Below, piece by piece: positions 16,601 through 64,000 of a DNA stretch of 64,000 nucleotides. Below the pieces are notes generated by a model. That model was not told the origin of the DNA. It did not search any database and was given only the letters and a program-made list of their open reading frames with translations. How positions within the stretch are numbered: position 1 is the first letter of the stretch; every line of letters begins with the position of its first letter. The stretch spans positions 746,001 through 810,000 of the forward strand of contig NC_088296.1 in the NCBI RefSeq assembly GCF_032854445.1, read 5' to 3'. The stretch comes from Liolophura sinensis. Lineage: Eukaryota; Mollusca; Polyplacophora; Chitonida; Chitonidae. The position numbers and the translations under genes are program-made.

Positions 16601-19600
16601 CCATTGAGCATTTGGGAATCTTATCCAATCCCGTATCAGCTAACTCAGATCTGCTTTTAACTGCTGATGTAACTTCCGGCAATGTTTTGTGCATTGCAAC
16701 ACAAAGACCTGTGGGCTTAGACTCATTCTCAGCTTCCCGTCTCCTTTTCAACTTGTAACATTCACTCATCACGTGACCTACCCGCTTGCAAAAATTACAA
16801 GTGACCCTATTTCGAGGACTACCATTCCAATCTGAACTACGTGAACCATGAGCTGTAGAACCATTGGAGCCTGGTGTAGAACTCTTCTGTGTAGAGATAC
16901 CTCTACCTGTTGCATGTGACTGGGTATTTCTACGTGTAAATGAATTAAATGGCTTACCCGTGTATGTAACCTTATGTGTCAAGGAATAATCATCAGCTAA
17001 ACTGGCTGCCTCTTCAAGTGTACTCGCCTTCTGCTCATCAACGAACACCTTTACATCATTATGAATACAACGCTTGAACTCTTCTACCAGCACAAGCTGA
17101 CGCAAACTTTCAAAATCCTTGCCTATTTTCTTGGCTATACACCAGCGATCAAACAACTGCTCCTTAGCTCGACCAAACTCAACGTATGTCTGATCTCTAC
17201 CTTTTTCACAGTTACGAAATTTCTGGCGGTAAGCTTCAGGCACCAGTTCATAACCCTTCAAAATTACCTCTTTCACATAGTCATAATTGGAAGCATTCTC
17301 TACACTTAACTGAGTGTAAATTTCCCTGGCCTTTCCAATTAGCACACTCTGTAATAACATAGTCCAGAACTCCTTAGGCCACTTCAAGCTATTTGCAATT
17401 TTCTCAAAATGCAGAAAATATTTATCCACCTCTTTTTCCTGAAAGGATGGAACTAACCGAATGTATTTGGTCACATCAAATCCGGAATCCTGTCTACCGG
17501 AAGGACCCGGTTTCTCATCTCTCTCTAACTCTAACTTTTTCATTTGGAACTCCAATTCTCTTTCCCTCTCTCTTTCTTGCATTTCTCTCTCCTCTCTCTG
17601 CACTTCCCTCTCTCTTTCTTTTTCTTCTCTCTGCATTTTCAACTTTTCTAACTCTATCTCATGTTCCCTCTCTTTCTCTCTTTCCTCTTTCTCCAATCTC
17701 AACTTTTCTAACTCAAACTGCTTAAACTTAAGCTCGGCATCAGACTGACCCTCGAACTCATAATCAGATAATGCAGAACTATCAAACTTCCCTATCTCCA
17801 CTAAATGTTTCAACAAAGTATGCTGCATATCTCTTTTCCTCCATGAAGACTTTATGGACAAACCTAAAAATGTCCCTAACTTAACCAAGTCTTCCTTCTT
17901 TAAACTCTCAAAAACATCCTGATCGGGCGCATTAACAAACTGTTTAGGATCAAAATCTCCCATTGTAAACATTTAGCCACTGAATCATTCACTGTTAAAA
18001 TTAAGCAATCGCTTCTCACATATGTTTAACTTCAAATATCCGGTGCAAAACAAAAGGGAAACAATCGGATCCCGGACAGGCCCCCAATTTCTGTTACGGT
18101 ATTGAAAACAGCAACAGAAAACAGATTCAGTGACTCAATATGTCAATGTAAACAATGCTTTATATATAAAATGAGACGTACAGTTTTACAGACAGTTCAA
18201 CAACAACAACAACATACACATCAGTATTACCGGTCTTTACAAGTTTCCAGTTCACGTTTGCATCCCAAGGAATGTATTCCAGGAAATCCAACGTAAAGAC
18301 CATGGGATAAACACACAGTTCACACAAGTTACAAATTGTCCTAGACAGGTACTTCGCCAGGTTAGCGAACACGAACACAGTACACAGGTTACACAGAACT
18401 GGAACAGTCAAGCCTTTGAATGACGTCACACCCGCAGACCACAACACAGGGTAAATACAGGCATGGAGGTATAATCCACTTCAGATCAGTCACAGCTCCC
18501 GCAGAAGCTCACAAACGAGCCGTTCAGAGACGTAGAGTAATGTCACCTTGTGGCAGAACGAACGTCCTTTGCAAAACTGAAAACTTCAGTTTAGAGTCCT
18601 TGACGACCTTGTCGGTCAGGTGAGGTCAGCGTGTTAAACAAATTACACAGTCCACACTGTATAATCATAATCAAGATCCGAACACCAATAAACGTGACTT
18701 CCGCAGAAATTCACATAAACCAGACATCAGTACTACTGTGGTACACAAACGGTGTCGGCATAAAAATCTGTCCTCCCAAATGAAACTGGCATCACCAGCT
18801 CATATCAAAATAATGGACTCGATACGAGAGCGTCGCACACTCTCCTGGCTCCCAGTGGATGCAGACAAAATACCTCCACTCTGCACAGAAAACACGGCTT
18901 ATATACGTGCCAGGTGGATTCAACTATTCTTAGACACAGAATTAACAGCCAATGAACATCCAGTTAAATAAACAGAGCATTGAACAAGGTGCTTTCGGCC
19001 AGGTCCGCACTGTACATATATAACAGGGCCTGTTATGCTTATAACATATAACACAAAGGTCCGCAGACTAACAGTACATGAAGACGTTAAATAGTCATAC
19101 ATAACACAATATATACCTGAGATAACAAAATGGAGATAATACAGGCTGGGTACTGAGATAGATGTTAAGACAAGCACAAGCACGGCAGATGGTCACGTTA
19201 ATTAGAAATTATCCGGCCAGTTGCCGCGGAAATCACTTACCAGAATAACATTACACTGTTAAGCACAAGTGTCATGTTGTCAACATTATTGTTGCTACAT
19301 TTTGTAAAATGTGCATGTCAACTTTAAGCTTTGCAGCTTTATTTTAGATTGCATGATTTTTCACATGGGAAAACCCACGACCGTCCGCATTGTTTTTTTG
19401 TTTTCAAACATGGACACAATTTCAAAAACAATTAATACTTGGACTTCTTCCTACACTTTTCTACGGTTTTCAATACAGTTTGTGATGATTTCATTGGTTG
19501 TACTACTGCAATGTTATGACTTTGAGGGCTCATTCTCACATTCTCACAAAAACGTTTTATTTACTAACGGTAAACACCCCTTGGAAACACGTAAGCTTAA

Positions 19601-22600: not shown

Positions 22601-25600
22601 AGGCTAGATCACACCTCTCGATAGTGTGTCTACGAAGTACTTCAAAACGATTGTCGGCTACTGGGCGTACTGCATCGAGAGTTTAAGTTTTCATTTGTGT
22701 AAAGTGTTGCCTTGTGGAATTGACACCAGGCGAATGGCAGTTGTTTACTCAGGACGTGCTCACAATTTTCACTAGAGCGTCGTATTAATACAAAATTCGG
22801 AAATAACCATAGATCAGTCAAATAAACAAATATAAATTCATCCTGTATGAATGGAGAAATGCATGTGTTCAACTTTAGTTACATAATGTCAGTGTCTTGT
22901 TTGTTTGGGTGTATATCGGGAAAAGGATATCTTCACGTCTAGTTATATAGCTTTTGCGTGTTGTTCATCTGGGGACTGCTGAAAAAGTGAAGGACCCAAA
23001 CTTGTATAATGATTAATTTGTACAAAGAAAAGGGAGTTTTTCTGCACGGTTACAAGCTTTCAAACGCAAGCTCCTAAATGTCTGCACCCTTTGTATTAAC
23101 GAGATTTTACATGTTGGTTCTATTTTCTGCCTCGTAGGATCCGTGGAGATGTGCGGTGGTTACCCGCGTGGGCGATGCTCCGTAATACTGGATAACAACG
23201 AAGACTATTCGCGCGCAGCGCCAGAAACTTACGAAGACGACCGATTTCGCTGGCCACTGACTTTTTTCCGATACAGCTGCCAGTGTTTCGGCAACTTTGC
23301 CGGATACATGTGTCACCAGTGTCTTTATGGTTACACTGGCAAAAATTGTACTGAGCGCATTGTGCGCGTGCGCAAGGATTTCAAGACAGTAACCGCGAGA
23401 GAAAAACGCTATATCCTAAGCACGTTTGAGAAGGCAAGGACGACACAGAGTGATTACGTCATCCTTGACGTCACCAAAGGCGCGGACCCGGTGAAGAATG
23501 TCACGTTTCTGACGGCGTCAGTGTATGACTATCTGGCATACATCCATTACTACGCCTCGCGCAAAACTATCTTCGACAACAGCAGCTACCCCGGCAACCA
23601 AACAAGCTTCCGTTGCGACGAGCCTCACTTCCCCAGTCTAGACTTTGCGCATCGTGGGACGAACTTTCCACTGTGGCATCGTTACTACATGATCCTCTGG
23701 GAGACAGAGATGCAAAGGCTGACTGGAGACATCCACTTTACCTTCCCCTACTGGAACTGGACGGACGCTGGCGTGGAGTGCGAAGTCTGCACGGACGACT
23801 TCCTCGGTACGCATGATCGGCGAGGCGGGATATCTGCAGCCTCACCGGTCAGTAAGTGGTATGGGCTCTGTGTCAGGCAGGTAGGTGTCTGTGAGGCCTG
23901 TGATCCCACCGTCCGCTTTCAGCTCACCCGCACACCAGGGAGGGTGCAAAGCGCGCCCAGACTGCCGACCGCCGCCACGGTGAATTTCGCACTGGAGCAG
24001 AATGTTTACGACTTCCCAGACTACACCACGAACGTTCCTAACGCCAGCTTTCGGGGCTGTCTGGAGGGTTACGTAGGCGTACCAATGAAGGATGTCTACA
24101 GGTTGCATAACGAGGTTAGTGATCAATTAATTTAATTTATTTTATTGTAAATTTAATATAAGATATCAATATATGACGTTGCTGGGGCTTATAAATATAG
24201 TAGAGTCAGTGGAAACTTATGAAACCTTTCCATTATATGGGAGTTCCATAACGCAATAACCAGAAAGGCGAATTTGAATCTACGCGTCAAACAGACATTC
24301 GTATACCAGCCGTCAACCAAAACAGACATTCGTATTGCAGCCCTCAAACGAAACAGACATTCGCTTACCAGACGTCAACCAAAACAGATATTCGTATTTC
24401 AACCGTCAACCAAAATGGAAGCTCCAGGTCATTTATCACAAAGAATATAACGAATTCAAAATTTGTAGTGATTCTGAGTGGAAGATTTTAATGTTCTACA
24501 GGTGAACGAATGAAATCAGTATCTGAGTTGGTGTGCCATGTTGGTCGTCCATGATCAAAATATGCACCTCAGTGCGCCCTCTCCGCCCCCATGACCTGTG
24601 GCTAGACCCGGGTTAAGTGGAATTAGACTTTGCTATAAAGCAGAATGCCAAATAGTCTGGCCGTATTTACTTACTAAGTCAGTCGTTTTAACTTTTCTTA
24701 CAATTAGGAGAGGAGAGAGCTGTTTATACATGTCTTAATACGTACAGTTTCTGTATGACATACACATAGTTATAAGAGAGTAGACGGATCAAATAATTGC
24801 TTGCTTTTCGTCCAAAACAAAAGTCAAATTACATATTAAACGTAAAATATCCACACATGAACGGAAAGTAAGAAATCACCAAACACCGCCATACCTCAAT
24901 TTTATTTGCTATTCGGAGAAATGAAGAAAACCACATCAACGAAGAGTTGTATTAAGTTTACTTGACTGTGAAACACCATGTGTTGTCGTAAACGCCGTAC
25001 TGATCCAGGAATTGTAAAAACTTGACATCCCATCGATAATGTCTCTCAATGGCTTTGGATTTTATCACACCAACTAATAACGCGGGACAAGTCTTCCTGG
25101 GCGGATTTCTATCTTGTTTTTATATGAATCTTAGCTACGATACAGTTCTTTTGTTTTTTGTGTCTTTTTGGGGGGATGTGGAAAACTGAATACCTAACAT
25201 ACGGCTATGGCTTATTTCGATCATTTCTCCTTTTTTCATGTCATATAATCGACCTTGCATGTGGCGTTATGGCGCTGCAACAATCATAAAAATGAGCAAT
25301 CTGTCTTTTTCCCTATGTACTCTTATCTTCTAGCACTTGTTAAGCAATAAAACAATTGACAAAATGAATAGTTGTTTGAACACCCATCTTTCATATCTCT
25401 GTCCCCTAGCATTTTTCAGGGTTGCAAAAATGGCCACCAGAGCATTTTACACTCTCTGGACATTTGTCTTAATCCTTGTCTTTACAGGTTCACATGTTTT
25501 TCGGAGGTGTGTTGAACTCCGCCACGTCAGCGTCGTGGGATCCGCTCTTCTACTTTCACCATTCCTTCATGGACAAGCTTCTGGAGACGTGGTTGAGGCG

Positions 25601-28600
25601 GACTGGAGCGCTCCCTGCACATGTAAGCCTTTTTCGTCAATCTGTTCGTTCATTATGGTTATGCTACTCGTCAGCAACAACAAATACAGCAAACTAGAAG
25701 CGTCAACAATCCATGGTGACATGATTCGACTGGTCCTTACAAGAGGGAAAAATGTACATGTATATAACTGCATAAACATTAACGGCAACGGAATTCCAAA
25801 TGCCTTTATATCTGTTTGTCGACATGCGTATACCAGCTGTAAACCAAATTAACCGCCCCAGGTCAATAATCACATGGCAAATTCTCCAAGTTAAACGACG
25901 ATTAGCAAAAACCACCCAAAAAGTAAAAGGTATATGAAGTCCAAAATCAGGACGGAATCATGCAAAGAAAAAGAGCCGTCAGTGGTTAAATGATGTCGGA
26001 AAGACGCAAAAAATATTCTGGACGAAAGAGTTCTATGACTCTCCTCGTCCATAAACACTAATGCCCTGTGAATGTCCCGAAATGTCTATAGAACACAAAT
26101 TGGATGTTTAAACCGTACTGTCTACAGAATAGAGATTGTCTTCATCACCCATAATGTCTACAGAATAGCGATTGTCTGTATGACCCGGAATGTCTATAAA
26201 ATAGAAATTGCCTGTATAACCCGTAATGTGTATGGAACTGAGATTGTCTGTATTACCCGTAATGTGTATGGAACTGAGATTGCCTGTATAACCCGTAATG
26301 TGTATGGAACTGAAATTGTCTGTATTACCCGTAATGTACGTAGAACGAGGATTGTTTACATAATCCGAAATGTCTAATATAATCTGAATCATGCATAGGC
26401 CACGGATTTTCGATATACCCGGTATATTCCATAGAAATCATGACCTCTGAACAACTTTAGGGAGTGTCTAAATAACAAGACGGTCAACATATAATCCGAG
26501 TGAGTGAGTGAGTGCTTGGGGTTTAACGTCGTACTCAACAATTTTTCAGTCATATGACGACGAAGGAATCATTAGGGTGCATGCACGTGTAATGTGCCTC
26601 CTTGTTGCAGGACGGATTTCCACCGCTCTTTTATTTAGTGCTGCATCACTGAGACGACTTACCGAAGGCAAGTAAGCTGCCCCGCCCGAGCCATTATACT
26701 GATACGGGTCAACCAGTTGTTGCACTATCCCCTTCATGCTGAACGCCAAGCGAGGAAGTTACAACTTCCTCTTTTAAAGTCTTAGGTGTGACTCGACCAA
26801 GGATTCATCCTGGATCTACCGGTCCCGAAGCGGACGCTCTACCAACTGTGCTATCCGGGCCGGTCCATATAATCCGAAATGTCCATACTGTCTGGGTTGT
26901 CAATCCCGTCCAGGTTGTCAATACCCTCCGGGTTGTCCATACCGTCCGGAGTGTTCATACCGTCCGGGCTGTCCATACCGTCCGTGTTGTCTATACCGTC
27001 CGGGGTGTCCCTACCGTCCGGGGTGTCCATGCTGTCCCGGTTGTCCATACCGTCTGGAGTGTCCATACCGTCCGGGGTGTCCATACTGTCCCGGTGGTCC
27101 ATACCGTCTGGAGTGTCCATATCGTCCGGGTTGTCAATACCGGTTGTCCATTCTGTCTGGGTTGTCAGTACCTTCCGGGTTTTCAATACCGTCCGGGTTG
27201 TGCATACCGTCCGGGTTGTCCATACCGTCCGGGGTGCCCCTACCGTCCGGTGTGTCCATACCTTCCGGGGTGTCCATATAGTCTGGGCTGTCAAAACCGT
27301 CCGGGTTGTCCATACCGCCCGGGGTGCCCATACCGTCGAGGTTGTCAATACCGTCCGTGTTATCTATACCGTCCGGGTTGCCCATAACGCCCGGGTTGTC
27401 CATGAGCCTATAAGCTGGAATGTACACACAACAGCTGAAATGGACTGGTAGTTGTTAAACATACCAGTGACTTAGCTTAAGACGCGTTTAAAGTCTGCGA
27501 CAGCCACAAATAGAAAACGGCGTCCAAACGACTATATTCCGCAAGTTGTCTGTAGTTTTAAGTATTACCTGATGTTGTTGCTTGTTTAACGACAAAGCTG
27601 CATGAACTTCAAGCGATTTGGCAGGTACATGGCATGCTGCAGTTATTATTTCGGGTTCGTCTTTGTCTCTTTCGCCCATGATTCAAATGAATCGTACTTT
27701 GTGTTCTTTGGAGAAAACTAAATATAGACCGTAAAGCAAAAGTACTCTCCCTTTCTCGAAAAAACGGGTATTAGCCTCGAGATATTGCTAATGTGAGTTT
27801 TTGACTACTGAGTGGAGATGTTCCCACCTGAATACAAGATTTACAAACCTTCTACAATTTTGTTCTTCTCAGTGATACGTCACACTTTTATACCATAAGC
27901 ACTTGTGTCGACCGGGCTCTGTCTGGTCCTCTATATACATCGATAGCCGTCACATAACCGAAATATTCTTGAGTATGGCGTAAAGCAACAAATATAATAA
28001 TAAAAGGGTGAACCACCTACACCTCGACGTCCCTAACACTGCGCTTTTTCCAGCTTCATATAATCTTCAACATATAGTTCATGGTGCTGGAAAGGAAATT
28101 TTGTAGGTTCCCCGGCTCTCACTCTTCGTAGCGGCCTTGAAGACAATACGCAGTGCAAGCATTTGACCTGTGCAAAATTTAACGTTCGATGAAGACGACA
28201 CTAATGTGTCGCGCTTGTTCGTACATCACAAGTGGGAATGTTTGTAATATATTAACCACCTATAAGGTTAATAAAACTAAAACAATTCTGATTATTGTAC
28301 TAAAAAGTCATCAAATGAATCGTCAGCAAACACATGTACCAAGTTACTTTCTCCTTATTCTAGCTGCCGCTGACAGACAGCGTTCCTGGCCATCACCGGA
28401 ATTCATATCTGATGGCATTTTTCCCGACTCAGGTGAGCGCCGCCTACTTCCGAACTTCAGAGCAACTGGGGTACACTTATGACGACATGATTACCTCCCC
28501 ATCATATAAAAGTGAGTATGGTGCATGCATGGGGCTTTGTTACAGTAGTGGACATGGCTCAGCATATACGAGATCTTAAAATACAACTGAATTCAATCCA

Positions 28601-44149: not shown

Positions 44150-44309
44150 ATGGGAACTTTTCACGTCTTCCTGACCGGTGTTCTGTCCATTTGTGTCTGT
44201 ATCGGGCCAGGCTTGGCTCATGTGGCCCTAACCTACCCGCCTGCCCGGAAGTTCGCCCTGGACTTTCTAGACAATGTGCGTACAATTGGACCATGTGGTA
44301 TGCCCAAAA
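44150..44309 (+). CDS. Gene 2 exon 1: signal peptide and mature N-terminal His
   Basis: The start at 44150 gives a hydrophobic leader ending GPGLA, with cleavage expected directly before HVALTYPPAR. The frame is open upstream to 44012, but the leader argues for this ATG. It ends TIGPCGMPK, phase 1, donor GTGAGT. Confidence 0.85.
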
Positions 44310-50300: not shown

Positions 50301-53300
50301 TTAAATCACTAACCAAGTCACTTTTCCATATACGACGTCCAGATATGGTCACCACAATGGTGGAAGACAGCTGAGACTCAACAACAAATATTTGAGTGCA
50401 CAACGGGTCCTAAGCGCCTGCCGGGCGTTGTCACTACGACCCCTAGAAATAAGAACGTATTTTCTTGAATAATGGCCAGATTTTTAGTAGGTTATGTTTC
50501 TTTATGAACATGACTCAAACATTTTAACAAGGCAAAACTCTTTTAATATCAGCGTGTAACATGTTCTCTGAAATCAGCCTTAAGTAGACAAAATTCTTCT
50601 GATATCACCGTGTTATTTGTTCTCTGATATCTGCTTAAGAAGACAAGACTCCCCTCGTGAGTCTTTCATTTATTCTGGGGATTCCACGTGATAACACCAT
50701 ACTCTCCTCATATCAGCGTGTTATTTGTTCTCGGGATTCCGCGTGATAACACCATACTCGTGTCACTGTATCAGCGTGTTATTTCTTCTCGGGATTCCGC
50801 GTTGTAACACCATACTTGTGTCACTGTATCAGCATGTTATTTGTTCTCGGGATTCCGCGTGATAACACCATACTCGTGTCACTGTATCAGCATGTTATTT
50901 GTTCTCGGAATTCCGCGTGATAACACCATACTCGTGTCACTGTATCAGCATGTTATTTGTTCTCGGGATTCCGCGTGATAACACCTTACTCGTCTCACTG
51001 TATCAGCGTGTTAATTGTTCTCGGAATTCCGCGTGATAACACCATACTCGTCTCACTGTATCAGCGTGTTATTTGTTCTCGGGATTCCGCGTGATAACAC
51101 CATACTCGTGTCACTGTATCAGCATGTTATTTGTTCTCGGGATTCCGCGTGATAACACCTTACTCGTCTCACTGTATCAGCGTGTTATTTGTTCTCGGGA
51201 TTCCGCGTGATAACACCATACTCGTCTCACTGTATCAGCGTGTTATTTGTTCTCGGGATTCCGCGTGATAACACCATACTTGTCTCACTGTATCAGCGTG
51301 TTATTTGTTCTCGGGATTCCGCGTGATAACACCATACTCGTCTCACTGTATCAGCGTGTTATTTGTTCTCGGGATTCCGCGTGATAACACAATACTCATG
51401 TCACTGTATCAGCGTGTTATTTGTTCTCGGGATTCCGCGTGATAACACCATACTCGTCTAACTGTATTAACATCTAATAAACTAACATCTAATAAATCAG
51501 TTAGTTCATCAATCACTATGTTCATCTCTGTATTACAGGGAATGGCCCTCGGACCACCTGGTTTGCTGGGCGGAGTTATAACGTCACGTGGCACCTTGGA
51601 TATCCACATCAGGTAAGCTTGGATGTGAACCTGTGATCTAATTTTGGCTTAAATGTGGAGAAACATGAAAACTGCATAAAGTTCAGGTGAAAGAGTGTGC
51701 AAAGGTAATTGTAAATGTGCTGTCCATATCGTTTTCGAATTTTCTTTACACAGAAAAAGCACTTGAAAGTAACTTTTGTACGATGTGTATTTGGGACCAC
51801 CTTTTCGTGTAAATAGCCTTTTCCGTAATAATGCTATTAATGAGGATGTACCACATGTTTAATTAATATATTTCCACTAGAATTTGGTCTTTTCGGCCAA
51901 TCAATGAGTTCATTCTGGATTTTGATATATTTACGTTTTTAATATACACATAAATATTATCATAATTCTAATTAAATACATATGTTTGGATATAAACAAC
52001 AAACTTACAATTTAATATATTTACTAGACATGCATCACATCCTTATTACAACATTATTATCCAACGACGATAAATATCAATGGTGGTCCCAAATACCCAC
52101 CATAAAAATATTTTCATATATACCTCTTTATTTAAAAAATAAAGACCATATTAGCAAGCTTTTCATCTAATTTTGAAATGATTTTTATGTTTTCTTCAGC
52201 TTTAATTAGGTAATTTTCGTATTACAACAAGACGATTATGAGTCAAGTATGCAGCCTATTGTGCTGTGCCCGTGTATTGATGAAAAGATCTTGGAGCAGG
52301 AATAGGAATTCACTACAAGTATTCCCTAAAAAACTCACGTGCATCAGATCCATACGGAACTGGGTCCCAGCTCATGAATGCAATTGCTTGTGACTTCATA
52401 ATTGAACAACTAAAGCATACTGAAATTGATATGCGAGGTGCTCTGTAGCTTCACTAACCGATTACATAAAGTGACTTAATTATAATTAGTCTGCTGAGGC
52501 AACAGATACGGTTCTGCCATGGTAATTAAACGAACACGTGTAAAGACGCTGAGCTCTTGTGTTGCCTGAGGCAATGTCTGGTCTTTGTAATCTCTGTATA
52601 TTACGGCACATATGTTCAAACATACTCAAATGTTTTCTCCAAGTTATTATTTTTACCACTGAAGAGGGTAATTTTCATTTCATTTATGGGTAAAACTGTA
52701 CAAAGGCGTTAAATTTGGTTCGTTAAGAGGTGATGAGCTCTACGAATTAGTGCAATGTGTGAGATAACAGCAATGTGTGAGATGACAGCAATGTGTGAGA
52801 TGACAGCAACGTGTTGTGTGACAGCAATGTGTATGTGACAGCAGTGTGTGAAATGTCTGCAGTGCGTGAGATGACAGCAATGTGTCATTTGACAGCAATA
52901 TGTGAAATGACAGAAATGTGTGAGATGACAGCAATGTGGCAGATAACAGCAATGTATGAGGTGACAGCAATGTGTCAGATGACAGCAATGTGTGAGATGA
53001 TAGCAATGTGTGAGATAAGAGCAATGTGTGAGATGACAGCAGGGTGTGAGTTGACAGCAGTGTGTAAGGTGACAGCAATGTGTGTGTTGACAGCAATGTG
53101 TGGGATGACAGCGATGTGTGAGATGACAGCAATGAGTGTGATAACACCATTGTGTTAGATGACAGCAATGTTTGAGATGACAGCAATGTGTGAGGTGACA
53201 ACAATTTTTGAGAGGACAGCAATGTGTGAGATGACAGCAATGTGTGAGATGACAGCAATGTGTGAGATGACAGCAATGTGTGAGATAACAGCAATGTGTG

Positions 53301-56300
53301 AGATGAGTGTAGGATGTGAGGTAAGTGGATTGAGTCAAGTGTGTGAGCGTGGAGGAGGAGATATAACAAGGAATTTGAAGCTGACGTTATGTCTTCGTGA
53401 TGACACCTCAGATCATCATTTCCTACTCATAATTCAGTTAAACGTCAGATGGCTCAGTTACACCATCATGTGGCAATATTTTACACATTATCGAACTTTA
53501 TTATATAACCAGGAGGCAATATGTTACATCACCTAACTCAGTTACATACCTAAGTGGAATTATTTCACACCTCATCTAACTCGGTCACATAACCAAATTG
53601 AAATATTTTACTCCTCATTCGTCTCAGTTAAATAAACAAGTAGAAATATCTCACACATCATCTAACTCAGCTACTTAAGCGAGTAGAAATATTTTACATA
53701 TTATTTAACTCAGTTGCATAACCAAGTGGCAATATTTCACACATCGCATTTCACACATTATGTAACTTAGTCAAATAGCAAAGTGCAGCCACATCCAGCT
53801 ACATAAACAGGAGGTAATATTTTACATGATGTAACGCCGTTGCTGTACATAACTAGTAGCAGTACACGTATTTCACACGTCAACTAATTCAGTTACATAA
53901 ACATGTGGAAATATTTTGCACATCATCTAACTCAGTTACCCAACAAAGTGGCAATACATGTATTTCACAAATCGACTAATTCAGTTAAATAACCAAGAGG
54001 CAATATTTCACACATCATCGAACTCAATCACATTACAAAGTGGAAATATTTTATACATCATCGAACTCAGTAATATATCCAGGTGGATATATACTGACGT
54101 CCAAAAGAAACTTGGACGTATGTGTGTCCAAGGCATGACACCCGTGACACAGTCAGACAAATAAATGTAAATAAATAAATAAATAGAATGTACTTCCTTC
54201 ATAGTTTTTTTTAGATATAAGTTGTCGGACAGCGCCCTATCTTGGAATATTCGTTTTTTATAATAATAATAAACATGCTCTGAAATATTCTTTATTTCTG
54301 CTTAAACCACCAATCGAATAAACGATAAGTATCTAATACAGGAGTAAACATGGACCAAGAATACTACAGCTAATGCGAGAGTAAAAAATTGTGAACTTAG
54401 AAAGTACTTGATATTAGCTCAGTGAACAACGTCACGGATCAATGCATTTATATAAGGAAATCATGGAAAAGCATTATACACGAAATGTGATTTTCTTAAA
54501 GGTGTCCATATTGAACTTCAACCATTTTGTAATCGACCTTGTATTTCAGACTGTCGTACATAGCTACAGTCCAGATTAATATCGATTTCGGCAAACATTT
54601 TGGGGGAAAATAGATTTTAATTTGAACAAGTCACGTTTAGGCGTCCCCTCGAGAATTTCACAACATAATTTGTATTTGTTTATTATGACTTAAAACAAAA
54701 ACATTCATACTTATATCTAAAAAAACTATGAACGAAGTACATTCTATTTATTTATTTATTTATTTATTTATTTTTTTATTTATTGATTTATTTATTTATT
54801 TACATTTATTTGTCTGACTGTGTCACGGGTGTCATGCCTTGGACACACATACGTCTTTACCAACTGTTAACGCTTGGTAGCAATATACGTATGTCACGCT
54901 GACAAAAGTCTTCATCATACATGCCATACGAAAGTTTAAATAGACAGCTCCATTAACAAAAGTCATCCAGTTGATATGTGCCTCACTTCTTGCACTCTGG
55001 TTTCTTCCACCCTCGAAATAAAAAGTGGATCCAACATTTATACCGATATCTGATACATTCTCATATTGCCTCTCTTCTATGAAATAGCGTGCAGAAACTT
55101 GCACTCGTACAGTGCACTCGTACCGTGCACTCGTACAGTAATGTCCGTATGTATTAAATATAAATATGCACATACAAGAAACCATATCACGTGAATACTA
55201 TTTCAGTGTATCACAATGGGGTATACGCGTTTCAATTCAATGGCGAAGTAAACCTACTTGTAGCAAAACTAGGCTACTGTGCGTGTACGGCAGGGCGTTT
55301 GTATCATTTTGAACGTTGCCTGTGGCGAGCTTTTTGTGTTTATTTATTTATTTGTTTGGTGTTCTATTTTCACTAACTCGACGGCGGTCAGCATTATGAT
55401 CGGAGGAAACCGAGCAGAGTCCGGGGAAACCTATAACCATCCGCAGGTTTATGGAAGGCTTTGACATGTACGGCCGGAGAGGAAGCCAACATGAGTTGGA
55501 CTTGAACTCACGGCGAACGAATTGGTGGGAGACTCCTGGTTCATTGTGTGTGTGTGTGTGTATGTGGGTGGGTGGGTGTGTATGTGTGTGCCTCGCCACT
55601 GCCCTTTGCCCTTTACGTTTTAGGGAGGATTTAACCTAGAACTACTTGACGAATCGGAAGTGGGTCAATTCTACATGTTACGTCAGCTCACGGCATCTAC
55701 ATGGATCTCGGGGGATGCCACGTGAGTATCATTTAAGCATCTCCAACATTCCAACGTTTTTTTATGGACATTGTCTTATTTAATTGAATTTGCTTTGGGT
55801 TGTCGAGCTCAAATATATTTAGTTACTGATTCACTCGTCAAAAAACCCTCGTTTTGCCGCGTTATCTGAGTTCTAGCTTACAGTGTTTCGACGGATGAAC
55901 AATCAGGATGCAACAACAACATAAACATTAAGCCATTCACATCTGATTGGCTGCCTGCCGCCTGACTTGGGCAGAGCCTTCTTTCTCCACGGATTTGTGT
56001 AAGTAACCAGTTACTCGGGAAGAAAGTTATTGTGGTAGAAGTATGACCCTGTGCTCAAGTCAACCTGAGGAGAGCGATTTAAAATTCATTGTTGTGTATA
56101 TTATTGTATTTGGGAGATTTTAACAGTTCCACTGCAAGGAAGTCTAAGCCACTGTCGCGAGGCAGGCGAGATTGTAAGATACTAGTAAACTACATTTAAC
56201 CTAAACGCAGCCCTTTTCAAATGAGGTTGTTGTCATCGATCGCCTCTGCCGCTTTAAGTCAGGAATATAAAGCCTGGCCGCTTTTATTTCAGTAAAAAAT

Positions 56301-59300
56301 ATCCAGTGAAACAAATAAATAAGTAAATAAATATCTAATATAGATTGTTTCCTCTAAATAAGTTTCTGTTGTCTGGAATTTGTTCGTGACTTTTGTCCGT
56401 TACCTGACTTTCTACTGGGAGTAGAAAGAACCCATTCACCTTGGTAACGTTTGTAACTGTACACCCTAAGCTGTACATTTTCCAGTTACAGTCAGAGACA
56501 GAATAAAAGTTGTCTTGCCGACATGTGTACGTATTAGCTGTACAATCAGTGAGTAAGTGGAGTGGGTAACTCTCAGTTGCGAGAGTTTCTTACAGAAAAC
56601 GTCACAAATGTCTCTGATTTACTGTAAGGAATACTTACCACTGTCCACACGCGTATTTTGACTTTCCTGGCTTAAGTCAACGTGAACAAAGCAGTCTCTG
56701 TATTGAAGTAAACAGTTTTGAGACTCACAACAACAGTTTGTGGAGTCGCCATCATGCTGCTTGAACGAGGCTTACCTTGAGGTCATGACCTTATACATCC
56801 CCTGCCAAATATAAATGCAGGAGCGTGTATGACAGAGAGCATAGGGATTATCTCACTTGAATGAAGTTTGATGCTGTCACATCGATGGTTGAAGATCGAA
56901 ATTGGGCTACAGTTGTGTAGAATTTGATAATGTCTTTTCTGTGATTCTGTGTGATAGCCACGGATCGTCTTGAGTTATGTCGGCCTAAAAAGAGGTAACT
57001 TAATTTGTGGGAAAATTCATCTGAACACCGTCGATGCGAACAAAGTGTGAACAGCAGTACATGTTCGTTTCATTATACCGTAAATCGGACAGACTTCCGG
57101 CCGTTTCTGTGGCTCTTCGGTAAGAGTAATCTCACGGCACAACTACATACTCCAGAAATACTGTTCACACGGCAGCAGTCCACGGTGGACTTGCAGTCAG
57201 ACTTCGCCTATAATAACTGAGCTCTGGGGATTATATATTCCCCGATTACAGACGGCAGCAGTCCACGGTGGACTTGCAGTCAGACTTCGCCTATAATAAA
57301 TGTACTCTCGGGGTTACATATTCCCTGATTACAGACGGCAGCAGTCCACGGTGGACTTGCCATCAGCCTTCGGCTGTAATAAGTGTACACTCAGAGTTAT
57401 ATATTCCCTAATTACAGATGGCAACAGTCCACGGTGAACTTGCAGTCAGACTTCGCCTATAATAACTGTACTCTCGGGGTTACATATTCCCTGATTACGG
57501 ACGGCAGTAGTCCACGGTGGACTTGCCATCAGCCTTCGGCTGTAATAAGTGTACACTCAGAGTTATATATTCCCTGATTACAGACGGCAGCAGTACACGG
57601 TGGACTTGCAGTCAGACTTCGCCTATAATAACTGTACTCTCGGGGTTACATATTCCCTGATTACAGACGGCAGTAGTCAACGGTGGACTTGCCATCAGCC
57701 TTCGGCTGTAATAAGTGTACACTCAGAGTTATATATTCCCTGATTACAGACGGCAGCAGTACACGGTGGACTTGCCGTCAGACTTCACCTGTAATAACTG
57801 TACACTCCGGCTCAGACGACAAGCTTCAGAATGGGGAGGACAGTACATGTTTTGGTCATGCGCAGACATTGATATACTCCCAGGTAATTGATGTTCACAA
57901 ATTCATGTCTGTTCCTAATGGGTTTTAAGAGCTCTTATTAATCAATTTTGACGAGTCTACTACAATTTCATTTTGAGTTTAGGTTAAAAATTATTTTTGA
58001 TTGTTATGTTTTTCGAAGGCTGAATCTGACAGTCTTTTTATGGTTATTGATCTTTGGTCGAAGTTTGATATAAACTTGTCTTTATTGCCATCATAGCTGA
58101 CGAAACAAGGCTAACCGCGACTAAATGTGATTGAAATGCGCGTCAGACAAAGACATTTTGCCTCAATTACGTATCTTCCGTGGCTTCACTTGTTTGTGGT
58201 TCGAATCTCTGTTCTGTTTTAAGTGTTTTCAGACAAGCTAGATGTCTGTTTCAGCCTCTTCCTTTGCCCCAGATTGCTCCGGCCACGGTACTTATGATTA
58301 CCAGGCCGGGCAGTGTCAGTGTAACAAACTCTTTTCCGGTGACAGATGTCAGAATAAAGGTAAGTAACCAATCATATTCTCCACTGTTACAGCAAACAAA
58401 GCTATGCTACGTTATTGTCCACTGTCACCTCGAACAAAGGAAAGCAACTCTACCTTTCTGTCTACATCCGCATCAAAGAAGTAAAGAAAAACCCTCTAAT
58501 TATCTGTGTACACGGGGAAAAGCAAGCAATCCCCATCTTCTAGTCTGCATCCACTGGAAAAAAAACAGTCAAACTTCATCTGACTGTCTACATCCACTGG
58601 AAAAAAAAAGCAAGCAAATCTCATCTTTGTGTGTACATTCACAGGAAAAAGCAAGCACACCTTATTTTAATGTGTACATCCACACGACATCCACTGGAAA
58701 AAGCAAGCAAATCTCATCTTTGTGTGTACATTCACAAGAAAAAGCAGACAACCTGATCTCACTGTGTACATCAACAGGGAAATAACAAAGCATACCTTAC
58801 TTATTGCTCACATCTACAAGAAAAAGCAAACAAACGTTATGTTATTGTGGACATCCACAGGAAAAAATCAAGCTACCCGATCTTATAGTGTACATCCACA
58901 GAAAAAAATCAAGCAAATGTCATCGTGTTGTGTACATCCACAAGAAAAAAACAAGCAACCTGATCTTATTGTGTACATCCACAGAAAAAAATCAAGCAAA
59001 CGCCATCTTGTTGTACACATTCAAAGGAAAAAAGTAAGCAACCTGATCTTATTGTGTACATCCACAAGAAAATATTTGCCTGTGTTTTTTTGATACTTTC
59101 TCCAATACATCAGGAAGGCGAAAAAAGTTGGTAGTCACCTATCCCCATTTACTTCGCTTTCCTCCACCCATGGAACTGACTGTTTTTGTATAAGTGAACT
59201 ATTCCTGAGTACGGTGTTATGTAACAATCAGTCGATCAATGGAACAATAAATCGTCTTTCCGCTGCCACTTCAGACATCTGCTGGACAGATACTGACTGT

Positions 59301-62300
59301 CTGGGCGGTGGTCGATGTGTGGACATAGAGGCCACTACCTCTCCCAGGCGAGTGTGCTACTGCTCTATCGACCGCTTTGGGGAAACGTGTGAATTTGGTA
59401 AGTGTGTGCTGGGGTATGTGAATTTGATAATTGTTTGTAGGGGAGGGATGAACTTGGTCATTTTTGTGGGGGAGAATGTGAATATGTGAAGGGTGAGTTG
59501 GGGTATATGAATTTGGTAAGTGTGAGTTCGGGTGTGGGAATTTGGTAAGTGTGTGTGTTTGGCGGGGGGGGGGGGGGTCTAGTAAGTGTCCGGGGGAAGG
59601 GGTGAATTTGGTAAGTGTGGGCTGTGGTGTATGGATTTTGTAAGGGTAACTGCGTTGGGGCATGTCAATTACGTAAATGTATATTGATGAGGTAAGTGTA
59701 AATATGGCAAGTGATTACGGATGCGTGTGAATTTTGTAAGGATTTGTGGCGGTGTGTGAGGTGTTGGGGGTGTGAATTAGTATTTGCGCGTTGGGATCTT
59801 TGAACTTGGTAAGTGTGAGTTGTGGTCTGTGATTTTGGTAAGTGTGAGTTGGGGTGTGTGAATTTGGTAAGTGTGAGTTAGAGTCTGTGGACCTGGTAAT
59901 TGTGAGTTGGGGTGTGTGAATTTAGTAAGTGTGAGTTGTGGTGTGTGAATTTGGTAAGTGTGAGTTGTGGCGTGTGGATTTGGTAAGTGTTAGGTGTAGT
60001 GTGTGAAGCTAGTAAATGTGAACTGTGGTGTGTGTAGGTTTGTTCACGGCTAGTATAAGAATGTCTGTTTTAACTTTCAGATTCACGATCACATTCGGTT
60101 TTTATCCTTATGGAAAGCGGTGGGACTGACCCTAATGTGGGAATGCTTATTATCGAATTCACGATACAGTACACTTTCCCTCCGATTCTCAAGGAAATGG
60201 GACATGTTTTCCCTCTTACATGACTCGTGTGTTAACATCTCTTACTCCCGAGAAAATTGAGTAAAGAGAACTTGTTTAGCCCAGTTGTCACAATGAAGAA
60301 TTTTATTACTTTGTACTCTCCTGTTTTTTTTTATTCTGTAATCATAAACATGTTCTAACTACCGTCCTTTGTCACGTGTTCTCCAGAATCCAGTGTGACA
60401 AGTCGTTTTCCCAATCTGACGTCTTACACAAGGACGGAGTTTAGCTCGTCGTTCACCATGTATCACAAGCTACTGCTGGTAAGTTGTTGTGTTCACCATG
60501 TACCACCAACTAATGCTTGTAAGTTGTTGTGTTCACCATGTACCACCAACTAATGCTTGTAAGTTGTTGTGTTCACCATGTACCACCAACTAATGCTTGT
60601 AAGTTGTTGTGTTCACCATGTACCACCAACTAATGCTTGTAAGTTGTTGTGTTTGCCATGCATCACAAGCTAATGCTGCTAAGCTCTTCTGTTCACCATG
60701 TGGCACAAGCTACTGCTGGTAAGTTGTTGTGTTCGCCATGAACCACAAACTAATGCTGGTAAGTCGTTGTGTTCACCATAAACCACAAGCTGATGTTAGA
60801 AAGTGGTTGTGTTTGCCATGAACCACAAACTAATGCTGGTAAGTCGTTGTGTTCACCATAAACCACAAGCTGATGTTAGAAAGTGGTTGTGTTTGCCATG
60901 AACCACAAACTAATGCTGGTAAGTCGTTGTGTTCGCCATAAACCACAAGCTCATGTTAGAAAGTGGTTGTGTTTGCCATGAACCACAAACTAATGCTGGT
61001 AAGTCGTTGTTCTCGCCATAAACCACAAGCTGATGTTAGAAAGTGGTTGTGTTCGCCACGAACCACAAGTCAATGTTGGTAAGTTGTTGTGTTCACAGTG
61101 AACCATAAGCTAACGCTGGTAAACTGTTGTGTTCGTTATGTACCTCAAACTAATACTAGTAAATCGTTGTGTTCGCCATGCACCACAACTTAATGTTGGT
61201 AAGTTGCTGTGTTCACAGTGAACCATAAGCTAACGCTGGTAAGCTGTTGTGTTCGTTATGTACATCAAGTTAATATTAGTATATCGTTGTGTTCGCCACG
61301 AACTACAAGTTAATATTGGTAAGTTGTTGTTTCGGGCTGTACCACTAGCTAATGCTGCTAAATAGTTCTGTTATCCATGTACAACAAGATAATGCTGGTA
61401 AGTGGCTCTATGTACCACTATCCAGTGCTGGTAAGTGGTTCTATGTACAACAATCTACTGCTGGTAAGTGTTTCTATGTACCACTGTCTATTGCTGGTAA
61501 GTGGTTGTATGTACAACAATCTACTATAGGCAAGTGGTTCTATGTACCATTATCAACTGCTCTTAAGTGGCTATATTTTCCACTATCTACTGCTGGTAGG
61601 TGGTTCTATGTACCACTATCTACTGCTGGCAAGTGGTTCTATGTACCACAATCTACTGCTGGTAAGTGGTTCTATGTACCACTATGTACTGCTTATGAAT
61701 CTTCCCCATGTCTCGTCTACAACACGTTTCGTGGAGGTATGAATAATTCGGATTCCATTCCAGGGAGTCTCTGTTGTTCATTTTTGCTTTACCGCTAATA
61801 TGTCTCTATTTTCTTTGTATCTCTGAAACTCTTAGATGTAGATGCTAGTCATAGATGTAATTCATAAATCTGTTCCACTGGTCTTTCTTTCCCCTGTCTC
61901 TCATACTCTGTGCCCCCCTCATTGTTAATCTTTCTGTACACTTTGCCCCTGTCAGGACCGCCTCCCTGTGGAAATAGAGTTTGTTCTCATGGCACGAACG
62001 GACTCCTGGGTCGGGCTTGGCCTCAGAGAAACCGGTAAGTTCTGACCAATGTTCCTGAATTCTGATCTACTGGATAAATGCGCGATATTGTGAGGGGATA
62101 GTTTTTCTCAGAACTGTTACATTGCCATAAACTCAATAAATAAATAGATGAATGATCAAAACAACTTTTGTAAAACTGCAACTGGCTGACCTGAACTGCC
62201 ACTCAGGAACGTCATTCTGTCATTCTGATGGGCTTTACCCACTCGTACAGCTTTCTAGCCTGTTAAGGGATGACATTAATGCTATTGTAAGTTTTAGGTA

Positions 62301-64000
62301 ATTCTGGACTAGTGACGTCTAATAAACTGCAGCCAACATTACTGCAATTCGGTACGTAATTCTGCTTAACTCACAAAGCTAAAAGGGACGCACGTTGGCA
62401 TATTTCAGGTACATAATGAACAGTGGGAATGAAACTCTGAATGAATAAATGGAATGAATGAAACAACTGACAAGAGGCTCCACTTCACCGGTTACATGTG
62501 GCCTTTTGCCAACTATCACAATGTCGTCGCTATTCTGGTCTTACTCTCTGTGCTGTACGTCTGTCACACTGTCACCGCTGCTCTGGTTCTATTCTCAGGG
62601 TTATACATCTATCACACTGTTTTCGCTGCTCTGGTTTGCTCTCTGGTTTGTACGTCTATCACTCTGTCGTCGTTTATCTGGTATTATTCTCTGTGCTGTT
62701 CATCTATGACTCTGTCGTCGCTGATCTCGTTTTATTCTCTGTGCCGTACGTCCGTCACATTGTCGTCGCTGCTCTGGTTTTATTCTCTGTGCTGTACGTC
62801 TGTCACACTGTCGTCGCTACTTTGGTTGACTTCCTGTGCTGTACGTCTCTAACACTATTGTCGCTGCTACGTTTTTCCTCTCTTTGCTGTACGTCTATCA
62901 CATTGTCGTCGCTGCTCTGATTTTATTCTCTGTGCTGTACGTCCACCACACTGTCGTCGTTGCTCTGGTTTACTTCCTGTGCTGTACGTCTATCACACTG
63001 CCCTTGTTGCCCTGGTTTTCTTCGTGTGCTGTACGTCTATTACACTGTCATCACTGCTCTGGTGTACTTCAGGTGCTGTATGTCTATCACACTGTTGTCG
63101 CTGCTCTGGTTTTATTCTCTGTGCTGTATATCTATCACACTGTCGTCGCTGCTCTGGTTTACTTCCTGTGCTGTACGTCTATCACACTCGTCGGTGCTCT
63201 GGTTTTATTCTCTGTACTGTACGTTTGTCACACTATCCTCGCTACTCTGGTTTTACCATATGTGCTGTAGTGTTTTACTTCCTACTTTTTCTTTCAAAGG
63301 GAAAACAGCCGATTGTCGAAGATTCCCAGAACCTCGCTCCGTCCCTGGACTGCAAACCCAAGGTAAACCGGAACCAACAGGGGAACCCCATGGTGAAGTG
63401 GAGCCAACAGCAGAACCCCATGACGATCCAACAGGAGAACCTAACAGTTTTCCTGAACCAACGGGAAAACCCCACAGTTATCCTGAACCAACGGGAGAGC
63501 CCCTCAGCTATCCGGAACCAACGGAAGAACCCCACAGCTATCCGGAACCAACGGCAGAACCCCACAGTTATCCAGAACCAACGGAAGAACCCCACAGCTA
63601 TCCGGAACCAACGGGAGAGCCCCACAATTATCCGGAACCAACGGGAGAGCCCCACAGTTATCCGGAACCAACGGGAGAACCCCACAATTATCCGGAACCA
63701 ACGGGAGAACCCCACAGTTATCCGGAACCAACGGAAGAACCCCACAGCTATCCGGAACCAACGGGAGAACCCCACAGTTATCCGGAACCAACGGGAGAGC
63801 CCCACAATTATCCGGAACCAACGGGAGAACCCCACAGTTATCCGGAACCAACGGGAGGACCCCACAGTTATCCGGAACCAACGGGAGAACCCCACAGTTA
63901 TCCGGAACCAACGGGAGAACCCCACAGCGAACCGGAGGGTGAGCCAGAAGGAGAACCGGAGGGTGAGCCAGAAGGTGAACCGGAGGGTGAGCCAGAGGGA
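44150..64000 (+). CDS. Secreted histidine-brace-like / EGF / DOMON mosaic protein (3' end cut)
   Basis: Nine exons join in phase: 44150-44309, 51539-51612, 55624-55721, 57750-57883, 58273-58359, 59275-59397, 60387-60478, 61956-62034, 63300-64000 (open at the window end). Signal peptide 1-23, then mature His24 (HVALTYPPARKF). Residues 24-155 form one compact domain with a Cys pair set, TWHLGYPH (His72, His77), GGFNLELLDES and FWSCADIDI. An EGF-like module spans about 156-184 and a second Cys-rich EGF-like module 185-225. A DOMON-like segment spans about 226-283 (SSFTMYHKLLLD...WVGLGLR), then Pro/Glu repeats from about 300. An N-terminal His freed by signal cleavage plus a second internal His is the copper histidine brace seen in LPMOs and X325/BIM1 proteins; assignment here is inference. 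DOMON domains bind haem or sugar. I do not know a named protein with this exact order. Confidence 0.85.
45605..46640. repeat. ~20-bp minisatellite with alternating variants, ~50 copies
   Basis: Units of CATCCACTCATGTGATGTAA alternate irregularly with CATCCACGTATGTTATGTAG. The left end has CACATCACACTCCTGTG variants. Located in gene 2 intron 1. Confidence 0.94.
46641..47694. other. Gene 2 intron 1, T-rich, nothing recognised
   Basis: Pyrimidine-rich sequence with loosely repeated TCATTACGTAG/TTTTTCACAGTCCAT motifs (about 46850-47430), perhaps a very old tandem array. Confidence 0.4.
47695..48190. repeat. ~32-bp minisatellite, ~15 copies
   Basis: Units of GATCGGTCATTGACCAGTGC plus TGTTCCGTCCTC. 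Confidence 0.94.
48525..48672 (+). mobile_element. tRNA-derived SINE (family A), 3'-truncated and decayed
   Basis: Contains GAGTCTCTGACTAATGCGGT, TGCTGTGAGTTCAAGTCCAG (B box) and CTCCGGTTGTACGTGGGAAC. It is cut off after ATGGCCATGAGG. Confidence 0.8.
49000..49085 (+). repeat. Single copy of the dispersed CACTGTCGTCGCTG motif
   Basis: ATTTCACCTGTTAGGTCTGA, CCATTTGACAGCTATCACAC, TGTCGTCGCTGTTATGGTGT, TACTTTCTATGG: same block order as at 10785, 12230 and 62480. Confidence 0.65.
49610..50215. repeat. 50-bp minisatellite, ~12 copies
   Basis: Units of AGCTTTGGCCTACATACAAA, ATACCACAACGTAACATATA, CTATCCAAAC. Confidence 0.94.
50540..51475. repeat. 58-bp minisatellite ending 64 bp before gene 2 exon 2
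   Basis: Units of GTGATAACACCATACTCGTC, TCACTGTATCAGCGTGTTAT, TTGTTCTCGGGATTCCGC; about 13 good copies plus decayed ones at the left. I see no clear copy of exon 2 in the unit. Confidence 0.94.
51539..51612 (+). CDS. Gene 2 exon 2: internal histidines of the N-terminal domain
   Basis: 74 bp; phase 1 in, phase 0 out; acceptor TGTATTACAG, donor GTAAGC. Encodes RNGPRTTWFAG and NVTWHLGYPHQ. His72 or His77 is the candidate second metal ligand. Confidence 0.85.
51613..52744. other. Gene 2 intron 2, unique part
   Basis: AT-rich, with no gene or array visible before the 18-bp repeat. Confidence 0.4.
52745..53335. repeat. 18-bp minisatellite (GCAATGTGTGAGATGACA), ~32 copies
   Basis: A multiple-of-3 period gives long open frames on both strands (for example HTLLSS repeats on the minus strand). 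There is no evidence of a protein. Confidence 0.95.
53430..54085. repeat. ~43-bp diverged minisatellite
   Basis: Loosely conserved units containing TAACTCAGTTACATAACCAA, GTGG(A/C)AATATTTCACACATC. About 14 copies; the right edge abuts the fold-back element. Confidence 0.85.
54115..54855. mobile_element. Fold-back element with long inverted arms
   Basis: The left arm 54115-54221 and right arm 54710-54855 are reverse complements: GACGTATGTGTGTCCAAGGC at the outer left pairs with CCTTGGACACACATACGTC at the outer right. The arms continue through a (TAAA)n stretch to TTTAGATATAAG / CTTATATCTAAA. The loop is about 490 bp without coding. It resembles a MITE or fold-back transposon; no clear target duplication was identified. 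Confidence 0.75.
55335..55543 (-). mobile_element. tRNA-derived SINE (family A)
   Basis: Tail TGTTTATTTATTTATTTGTT, then GTCAGCATTATGATCGGAGG, CATCCGCAGGTTTATGGAAG, GGAGAGGAAGCCAACATGAG and part of the head. A GT-rich microsatellite follows directly (55543-55590), about 35 bp before exon 3. Confidence 0.85.
55624..55721 (+). CDS. Gene 2 exon 3
   Basis: 98 bp; phase 0 in, phase 2 out; acceptor TTACGTTTTAG, donor GTGAGT. Encodes GGFNLELLDESEVGQF through TASTWISGDA. Directly after exon 2 it gives YPHQ-GGFNLELLD, which reads as a continuous beta-sandwich-like domain. Confidence 0.85.
55722..57168. other. Gene 2 intron 3, unique part
   Basis: No gene or array recognised before the 83-bp repeat. 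Confidence 0.4.
57169..57749 (+). repeat. 83-bp array of exon 4 acceptor copies (7 units)
   Basis: Units begin at 57169, 57252, 57335, 57418, 57501, 57584 and 57667, and the true exon 4 begins at 57750, exactly the next 83-bp step. Each unit carries the CTGATTACAG|ACGGCAGCAG boundary and about 60 bp resembling the start of exon 4. Five of the seven keep TTACAG; 57169 has TTCAC and 57501 has TTACGG. Two unit types alternate after 57252, giving a 166-bp higher-order period. Confidence 0.95.
57750..57883 (+). CDS. Gene 2 exon 4: end of the N-terminal domain
   Basis: 134 bp; phase 2 in, phase 1 out. Encodes RQQYTVDLPSDF, TCNNCTLRLRRQ and YMFWSCADIDILP. The Cys-x-x-Cys and FWSCAD motifs close the N-terminal domain. 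The acceptor is the last of eight near-identical boundaries; the choice rests on phase and on the only full-length downstream coding sequence with a donor (GTAATT). Confidence 0.88.
58273..58359 (+). CDS. Gene 2 exon 5: EGF-like module
   Basis: 87 bp; phase 1 at both ends, the usual phase for shuffled EGF exons. Encodes CSGHGTYDYQAGQCQCNKLF and GDRCQNK. Donor GTAAGT. Confidence 0.88.
58360..59090 (+). repeat. ~40-bp array after exon 5, probably seeded at its donor site
   Basis: Late units read GTAAGCAACCTGATCTTATT plus GTGTACATCCACA and an A-run. The first units, starting AATAAAGGTAAGTAACCAAT at the exon 5 boundary and AACAAAGGAAAGCAACTCTA at about 58431, form a graded series from the splice junction into the array. 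Divergence is high. Confidence 0.8.
59275..59397 (+). CDS. Gene 2 exon 6: second Cys-rich EGF-like module
   Basis: 123 bp; phase 1 at both ends. Encodes DICWTDTDCLGGGRCVDIEA and RVCYCSIDRFGETCEF, six cysteines in EGF-like spacing. Donor TTTG|GTAAGT. Confidence 0.88.
59391..60035 (+). repeat. ~27-bp array of the exon 6 donor boundary
   Basis: The unit GTGTGAATTTGGTAAGTGTG plus AGTTGGG includes the last bases of exon 6 and its GTAAGT donor. At least eight copies keep TTGGTAAGTG. A 14-G run sits at 59564-59577. Confidence 0.92.
60387..60478 (+). CDS. Gene 2 exon 7: start of the DOMON-like domain
   Basis: 92 bp; phase 1 in, phase 0 out; acceptor GTTCTCCAG. Encodes ESSVTSRFPNLTSYTRTEFS, then SSFTMYHKLLL. 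The donor GTAAGT at 60479 is the first of a row of 40-bp copies. Confidence 0.85.
60459..61350 (+). repeat. 40-bp array of the exon 7 donor boundary, ~22 copies
   Basis: The unit holds TTCACCATGTATCACAAGCT, ACTGCTG|GTAAGTTGTTGTG, that is the last 27 bp of exon 7 plus the donor. GT dinucleotides lie at 60479 (the real site), 60519, 60559, 60599, 60639, 60719 and 60759, in exact 40-bp register; the 60679 unit has CT in place of GT. Confidence 0.95.
61375..61700 (+). repeat. 33-bp array, offshoot of the exon 7 donor array
   Basis: Units of GGTAAGTGGTTCTATGTACC plus ACTATCTACTGCT keep CTGCTGGTAAGT and a shortened exon-like part. A multiple-of-3 length leaves an 11-residue repeating frame (GKWFYVPLSTA) that is not likely coding. 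Confidence 0.92.
61956..62034 (+). CDS. Gene 2 exon 8: DOMON-like core
   Basis: 79 bp; phase 0 in, phase 1 out; acceptor TGCCCCTGTCAG, donor GTAAGT. Encodes DRLPVEIEFVLMARTDSWVG, LGLRET. The (E/F)-hydrophobic-(A)-x-WVGLG motif is the DOMON signature strand. Confidence 0.87.
62480..63265 (+). repeat. ~48-bp array built from the dispersed CACTGTCGTCGCTGCT motif
   Basis: Begins as a good single copy (TTCACCGGTTACATGTGGCC, TTTTGCCAACTATCACAATG), then repeats TGCTGTACGTCTATCACACT, GTCGTCGCTGCTCTGGTTTT, ATTCTCTG about 15 times, ending about 35 bp before exon 9. This is a second, independent expansion of the motif also amplified at 12230. Confidence 0.93.
63300..64000 (+). CDS. Gene 2 exon 9 (truncated): Pro/Glu-rich repeat region
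   Basis: Acceptor CTTTCAAAG, phase 1 in. It first completes the DOMON-side sequence GKTADCRRFPEPRS, then encodes tandem PEPTGEPHSY (30 bp, about 63425-63930, some 17 copies with E/A/N/L variants), then GEPE 12-bp repeats running off the window. The frame is intact over 233 codons, and most changes between units keep Pro, Glu and the aromatic residue. It is probably an extended, acidic linker. The minus-strand open frames here are shadows. Confidence 0.88.

Follow-up and report, generated by a model that had tools for sequence, protein, structure and literature searches.

The closest described systems, each cited here from excerpts of the original reports, are the lancelet "mirages", which are tandem repeats over exon-intron boundaries (PMC3087553, PMC3902484). 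Examples have been found in Adh3 and the globin genes BflGb6 and BflGb9 (PMC3087553), as well as in TnC and PGBD5 (PMC3902484), with Adh3 and TnC known to us through these two papers only, and RT-PCR suggested that the splicing of mirages is undisturbed (PMC3087553). In the potato RdRp gene, a new intron arose when a segment spanning a 3' intron-exon boundary was duplicated (PMC4974935), and in human genes, internal tandem repeats at boundaries alter gene structure in primate paralogs (PMC2812944). The excerpted account of intronic minisatellites in an earthworm metallothionein gene reports no boundary copies (PMC12783039). No report of a molluscan mirage was present among the literature matches listed, the scope of which left out most subscription papers, and the terms "tandem repeat" and "minisatellite" were absent from the main text of a chiton genome comparison (PMC12005716).

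Here we analyse a 64,000-nucleotide stretch of chiton DNA (the window), from an assembly of PacBio HiFi reads with a mean length of 8,347 bp and 14x coverage (PMC11068029, also cited from excerpts), which was published as Liolophura japonica, the species later being corrected by the authors to L. sinensis (PMC12441733). The array at exon 4 of a gene in this window is a genuine mirage, in a phylum new for such structures, and is one of many in the chiton genome. As in lancelets, the chiton units span 5' or 3' exon-intron boundaries and carry AG or GT. The exon 4 array shares with BflGb6 its composition, combining the 3' end of an intron with the 5' part of the next exon, and also the pattern of concerted evolution within the cluster from which the edges are excluded. 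It differs from BflGb6 in having a unit of 83 bp, rather than 150-160 bp, in belonging to a mollusc, and hence to another phylum, and in being known from DNA alone; furthermore, the chiton genome made a sample count possible (12 of 407 boundaries), which sets it apart from the lancelet mirages. Like the potato duplication, the repeated segment runs over the 3' boundary and includes copies of a putative branch site, a pyrimidine tract and the 3' splice site, although a single duplication sufficed for a new intron in potato, whereas approximately eight units have produced none in the chiton. Like the human cases, it represents minisatellite expansion at an exon-intron boundary, but exons were altered or introns created in those genes, whereas the chiton mRNA should be unchanged.

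The host gene

The exons of the host gene, including the array at exon 4, are as follows.

44150-44309, forward strand: probable exon 1, a signal-peptide-like stretch followed by HVALTYPP (start, cleavage site and donor judged by eye)
51539-51612, forward strand: exon 2
55624-55721, forward strand: exon 3, with a phase-2 end
57169-57749, forward strand: seven upstream 83-bp units, intronic, with a 166-bp higher-order step (from Tandem Repeats Finder, TRF, and unit comparison)
57750-57883, forward strand: exon 4, the last array unit (phases 2/1 at its splice sites, an open frame and a match in the paralog)
58255-58359, forward strand: exon 5, EGF-like
59275-59397, forward strand: exon 6, EGF-like, alone below Pfam cut-offs
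60387-60478, forward strand: exon 7, DOMON-like by eye, without a Pfam hit
61956-62034, forward strand: exon 8
63300-64000, forward strand: exon 9, with an in-frame proline-rich repeat, continuing past the window end

The phases of exons 2 to 9 are consistent throughout, and exon 4 is supported by its phase-consistent neighbours, exons 3 and 5. The Pfam search recovered EGF-like sequence in the host protein (EGF_Teneurin, 24.4 bits against a cut-off of 24.3). In sequence, its N-terminal part is similar to the copper-binding BIM1-like and LPMO_10 modules, with scores just below the cut-offs: LPMO_10 (PF03067) scored 22.4 bits, not reaching the gathering score of 23, and BIM1-like 24.4 bits against 27, both with exon 1 joined by hand, such that the exon 1/2 junction is slightly wrong and a few residues are missing. 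The Pfam search of the protein without exon 1 returned no LPMO or BIM1-like hit. Exon 9 itself holds a 30-bp in-frame coding tandem repeat with a 10-residue proline-rich unit (63428-63927, forward strand), and arrays therefore occur inside coding sequence too, when in frame.

A tandem array across the intron 3-exon 4 boundary

In the 64-kb window, TRF called the array at 57169-57807 with a period of 83, 7.7 copies and 85% matches, and alternatively as a 166-bp dimer with 93% matches. The original prediction, that units step by exactly 83 bp from 57169 to 57667 and then to the exon start, was borne out by both TRF and the unit starts (57169, 57252, 57335, 57418, 57501, 57584, 57667 and 57750), of which the eighth is that of exon 4, leaving seven units upstream. 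Each unit combines approximately 25 nt of acceptor-bearing intronic sequence with approximately 58 nt of exon-4-like sequence, meaning the repeat spans the boundary, as in mirages; the similarity covers the first 58 nt of exon 4 (57750-57807), with the rest of the exon, to 57883, outside it. Hence the predicted tandem duplication across this boundary is evident in the units themselves.

The inner units fall into two alternating types, with 1-5 differences over 83 positions within a type and 11-16 between types, and recent growth was therefore probably in dimers. The first unit (57169) differs by seven from its closest relative, compared with the 1-5 of inner units of the same type, such that the array has the homogenised interior and diverged edge characteristic of mirages. 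In one type, the CNNC stretch is missing its first cysteine; in the other, neighbouring residues are changed.

We consider the exon 4 array to be a mirage-type minisatellite spanning the exon boundary, in which the last copy codes, and the upstream copies are drifting intronic sequence without a shown function, with a probability of roughly 0.86. As the units show, about 25 nt of the end of intron 3 underwent tandem duplication together with about 58 nt of exon 4. Subsequent growth, latterly in 166-bp dimers to judge from unit similarity, would probably have occurred through slippage or unequal exchange. The 3'-most copy would have stayed joined to the remainder of exon 4, and continued to code, while the upstream copies turned intronic and drifted. 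A point against this reading is that the 5'-most unit, preceded by TTCAC, has no recognisable acceptor and thus does not show the founding breakpoint directly.

Arrays are hard to assemble, and coverage was 14x, yet the mean HiFi read of 8,347 bp compares with an array of ~640 bp, making a collapsed or invented array unlikely, and the differences between units are patterned; we regard an assembly artefact as scarcely credible. When the 166-bp dimer at 57584-57749 was used to query the assembly, skipping very common words, it had five matches, all within its own array (C2:803166-803810), and no second copy of the locus was found within the same limit. A dispersed mobile element or satellite, of the introner-like kind, was rejected, as all matches of the dimer found in this search, with very common words skipped, lay in the exon 4 array.

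Choice among near-identical acceptors

The acceptors of the array were scored with a PWM built from 133 sampled acceptors.

57246-57251, forward strand: decoy acceptor TTACAG, PWM score 5.9
57329-57334, forward strand: decoy acceptor TTACAG, PWM score 4.9
57412-57417, forward strand: decoy acceptor TTACAG, PWM score 9.4, exceeding the inferred true site
57495-57500, forward strand: decayed acceptor TTACGG
57578-57583, forward strand: decoy acceptor TTACAG, PWM score 9.0, equal to the inferred true site
57661-57666, forward strand: decoy acceptor TTACAG, the nearest to exon 4, PWM score 4.9; its use leads to TAG in the fourth codon (TRQ stop)
57744-57749, forward strand: inferred true acceptor TTACAG, PWM score 9.0, at the 30th percentile of the 133 sampled acceptors

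TTACAG is kept by the units starting at 57252, 57335, 57418, 57584 and 57667, which are the five with an intact AG that had been predicted. The expectation that every unit would carry an acceptor and about 60 bp of exon-like sequence needs qualifying: the exonic part, of about 58 nt, agrees, but unit 57501 reads TTACGG and unit 57169 has no recognisable acceptor. AG is thus present at five of the six aligned upstream acceptors, and as in lancelet mirages, many but not all units have the splice dinucleotide.

The last acceptor does not stand out by its strength, with intact decoys scoring 4.9-9.4 against 9.0 for the true site, and site strength was rejected as the selector given that the decoys of units 57584 (9.0) and 57418 (9.4) equal or exceed this value. 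Scanning from the branch point is commonly taken to prefer the first AG, and on that view some leakage to the decoys is to be expected. Only from 57750 does the frame stay open as far as the donor, with premature stops encountered from all five intact decoys. The neighbouring acceptor does shift the frame, 83 not being a multiple of three, and a TAG is met at once; the acceptor of unit 57252 keeps the frame, with 498 extra nt, and a stop is met all the same. Splicing most probably selects the last acceptor, at 57750, presumably through exon definition, in which this acceptor is paired with the donor at 57884 over the 134-nt exon. Use of any of the five intact decoys instead leads to a premature stop, and would probably result in message decay. 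The array makes intron 3 longer, and the mRNA should stay unchanged.

The original prediction also saw in this array a proposed route to new introns and exons. Such a step, with the upstream units being or becoming alternative exons, has precedents in the potato RdRp intron made by 3' boundary duplication (PMC4974935), and in the model proposed for lancelet globins, as far as the excerpts of these sources go. However, every intact decoy frame in the chiton gene is stopped, and the first CNNC cysteine has been lost from one unit type and neighbouring residues changed in the other. We consider this outcome highly improbable, and the prediction overstated: no new intron or exon was seen, intron 3 was lengthened, and the five decoys lead to premature stops.

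Further arrays in the host gene and its paralog

The exon 4 array is not singular, given the lancelet mirages in the excerpted reports and the further boundary arrays in the same genome, where such arrays recur at both donors and acceptors. Two lie elsewhere in the host gene, at the donors of exons 6 and 7, and a third array, after exon 5, is a possible case.

58511-59072, forward strand: degenerate array with a 41-bp unit, following exon 5 and perhaps derived from its donor (by eye; outside all tests)
59388-60034, forward strand: donor-side array after exon 6, with a 29-bp unit, of which 10 nt are exonic (TRF blocks 59388-59556 and 59801-60034)
60451-61403, forward strand: donor-side array after exon 7, with a 40-bp unit, of which 28 nt are exonic, in 23.9 copies (TRF)

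Boundary-spanning arrays are present at three of the 15 tested boundaries of this gene: the exon 4 acceptor, and the exon 6 and exon 7 donors. The gene has a diverged paralog, located at about 1.0 Mb on contig C7, whose counterpart of exon 4 has 59% amino-acid identity over 43 residues. This paralog has a 62-bp, 2.1-copy array at its exon 3 acceptor and a 52-bp, 15-copy array at its exon 6 donor, with none at exon 4. Hence the exon 6 donor bears different units in the two paralogs (29 bp in the host gene and 52 bp in the paralog). As an array-free intron occupies the same phase-2 position in the paralog (by eye), intron 3 is probably older than the exon 4 array.

Copy number ranges from 2-3 (paralog exon 3, and loci L016, L026 and L018 of the sample described below), through approximately eight in the exon 4 array, to more than 40 (L013, L027 and L028). 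This range may represent stages, ordered in time. At one kinesin locus (L034:2087-4159), a donor-side array of ~22 units ends in a second exon copy, which is longer and has a good donor of its own, a candidate nascent duplicate exon.

Prevalence of arrays at splice sites

Boundaries were sampled from myosin, kinesin and dynein exon hits, which were picked regardless of arrays but in exon-dense regions, a choice that favours short introns. Of the hits listed, the regions used contained 49/81 for myosin, 94/132 for kinesin and 67/86 for dynein, and PX family hits were left out. The curated set retained 48 of the 49 myosin and 91 of the 94 kinesin hits, some with one edge only, and its boundaries were partly chosen with arrays in view (e.g. 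at L026, L027 and L028).

One account of these arrays is that their position is due to chance: intronic minisatellites are so dense that a splice site will by accident fall within some of the founding segments, without any special link. The share of sequence in TRF arrays is 33% for the window and 14.7% for the loci of the myosin and kinesin families. In a looser first count, allowing any overlap up to 150 nt, arrays were found at 12 of 264 curated myosin and kinesin boundaries (4.5%), compared with 3.8-4.0% of 16,033 random intronic positions, meaning there was no excess. After this count was seen, a criterion was adopted by which the end unit of the array spans the site, as deeper arrays would alter the protein. 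Expectations were calculated by placing boundaries uniformly within the same non-exonic sequence. With this criterion, the curated set (38 loci, 195.5 kb) had spanning end units at 8/131 donors (1.16 expected, P 3e-5) and 4/133 acceptors (1.33 expected, P 0.05), and the ratio of seen to expected was 4.5-5.4 over eight settings. No array in these loci extended more than one unit into an exon, compared with 7.3 expected, which fits the survival of arrays that leave the mRNA unchanged. The dynein sample (14 loci, 57.6 kb), for which the criterion was fixed in advance, had no excess (1/132, with 1.2 expected); adding it to the curated set gave 13/396, with 3.7 expected.

An automatic rerun of the myosin and kinesin boundaries gave 11/275, compared with 12/264 after curation, with L026 being lost. 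By family, the automatic counts were 6/95 for myosin (1.07 expected), 5/180 for kinesin (1.46 expected) and 1/132 for dynein (1.17 expected), and overall 12/407, or 2.9% (95% interval 1.5-5.1%), compared with 3.7 expected (~3.2x, P 0.0005). The density of array edges at donors was highest in the last 60 exonic nt, at 0.89 per kb against 0.26-0.76 in intron bins, but acceptors had no such peak, their first 60 exonic nt having 0.50 per kb and the intron bins 0.26-0.75. When exon-end 30-mers of the host gene and myosin loci were aligned with the adjacent 400 nt, scores of at least 16 occurred at 5/51 donors and 2/56 acceptors, compared with 0.085% and 0.035%, respectively, in cross-locus controls; this check missed the short-overlap arrays L013 and L009, and included a donor (L017:6373) absent from the TRF calls.

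Hence the prevalence of arrays at boundaries is firm for these loci. The excess over uniform placement, carried by two of the three families, is tentative, as neither the looser first count nor the pre-set dynein sample had one. Chance placement agrees with both of these, and with array edges lacking a peak at acceptors; the end-unit counts in myosin, kinesin and the three families together, and the maximal edge density in the final exonic stretch at donors, are set against it. We regard chance as possible, although not the account we would favour. That chiton splice sites are preferred birthplaces of minisatellites, with introns lengthening from the exon edge outward as the boundary itself is copied, and a few per cent of boundaries bearing rows of decoys for the spliceosome to ignore, is doubtful. 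Were it true, the result would be a genome-wide natural experiment on the choice of the right splice site; were the tentative excess to hold, it would point to a mutational route to longer introns with the protein untouched. Mirages, described gene by gene in lancelets, are at ~3% of sampled chiton boundaries, which suggests they are no cephalochordate oddity. Each is a natural test of the choice among near-identical sites in a row, with the first donor or the last acceptor to be selected.

Decoy conservation

Decoys were compared across 15 arrays, three from the host gene and 12 from the curated sample, comprising 240 decoy units, with the L028 donor taken at 1674. GT or AG was kept in 203 of the 240, and mutates like any other dinucleotide in the unit (mean rank 0.49), with neither purging nor retention relative to the rest of the unit seen over the 15 arrays, which fits neutral copies. 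This bears on whether the exon 4 array is functional, with the row of acceptors tuning splicing through regulated alternative 3' splice sites, or through poison splicing via nonsense-mediated decay. Five intact decoys that all lead to premature stops, two of them scoring at least as highly as the true site, would suit poison splicing, but decoy cores that are neither kept nor purged, and a paralog without an exon 4 array, make a functional row improbable.

Genomic context

Tandem arrays of many different units cover 21,349 bases of the window (~33%) by TRF, a large example being that at 7583-9786, with 19.9 copies of a 111-bp unit and 96% matches. A tyrosinase central domain (PF00264, 1.5e-18) lies at 23353-24096 on the forward strand, and together with 4503-4671 and 25488-25622 (edges by eye) probably constitutes the first gene of the original prediction; the TRF list had no arrays across the edges of these three segments. 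A Gag-like open frame at 13237-18862 on the reverse strand, with a SCAN domain at 16989-17762 and matching flanks ~5.1 kb apart, is probably a Ty3-like retrotransposon. Elsewhere in the assembly, contig C99 has COX1 seven times, every ~15.5 kb, representing head-to-tail mitochondrial copies that are either a real concatemer or an assembly effect.
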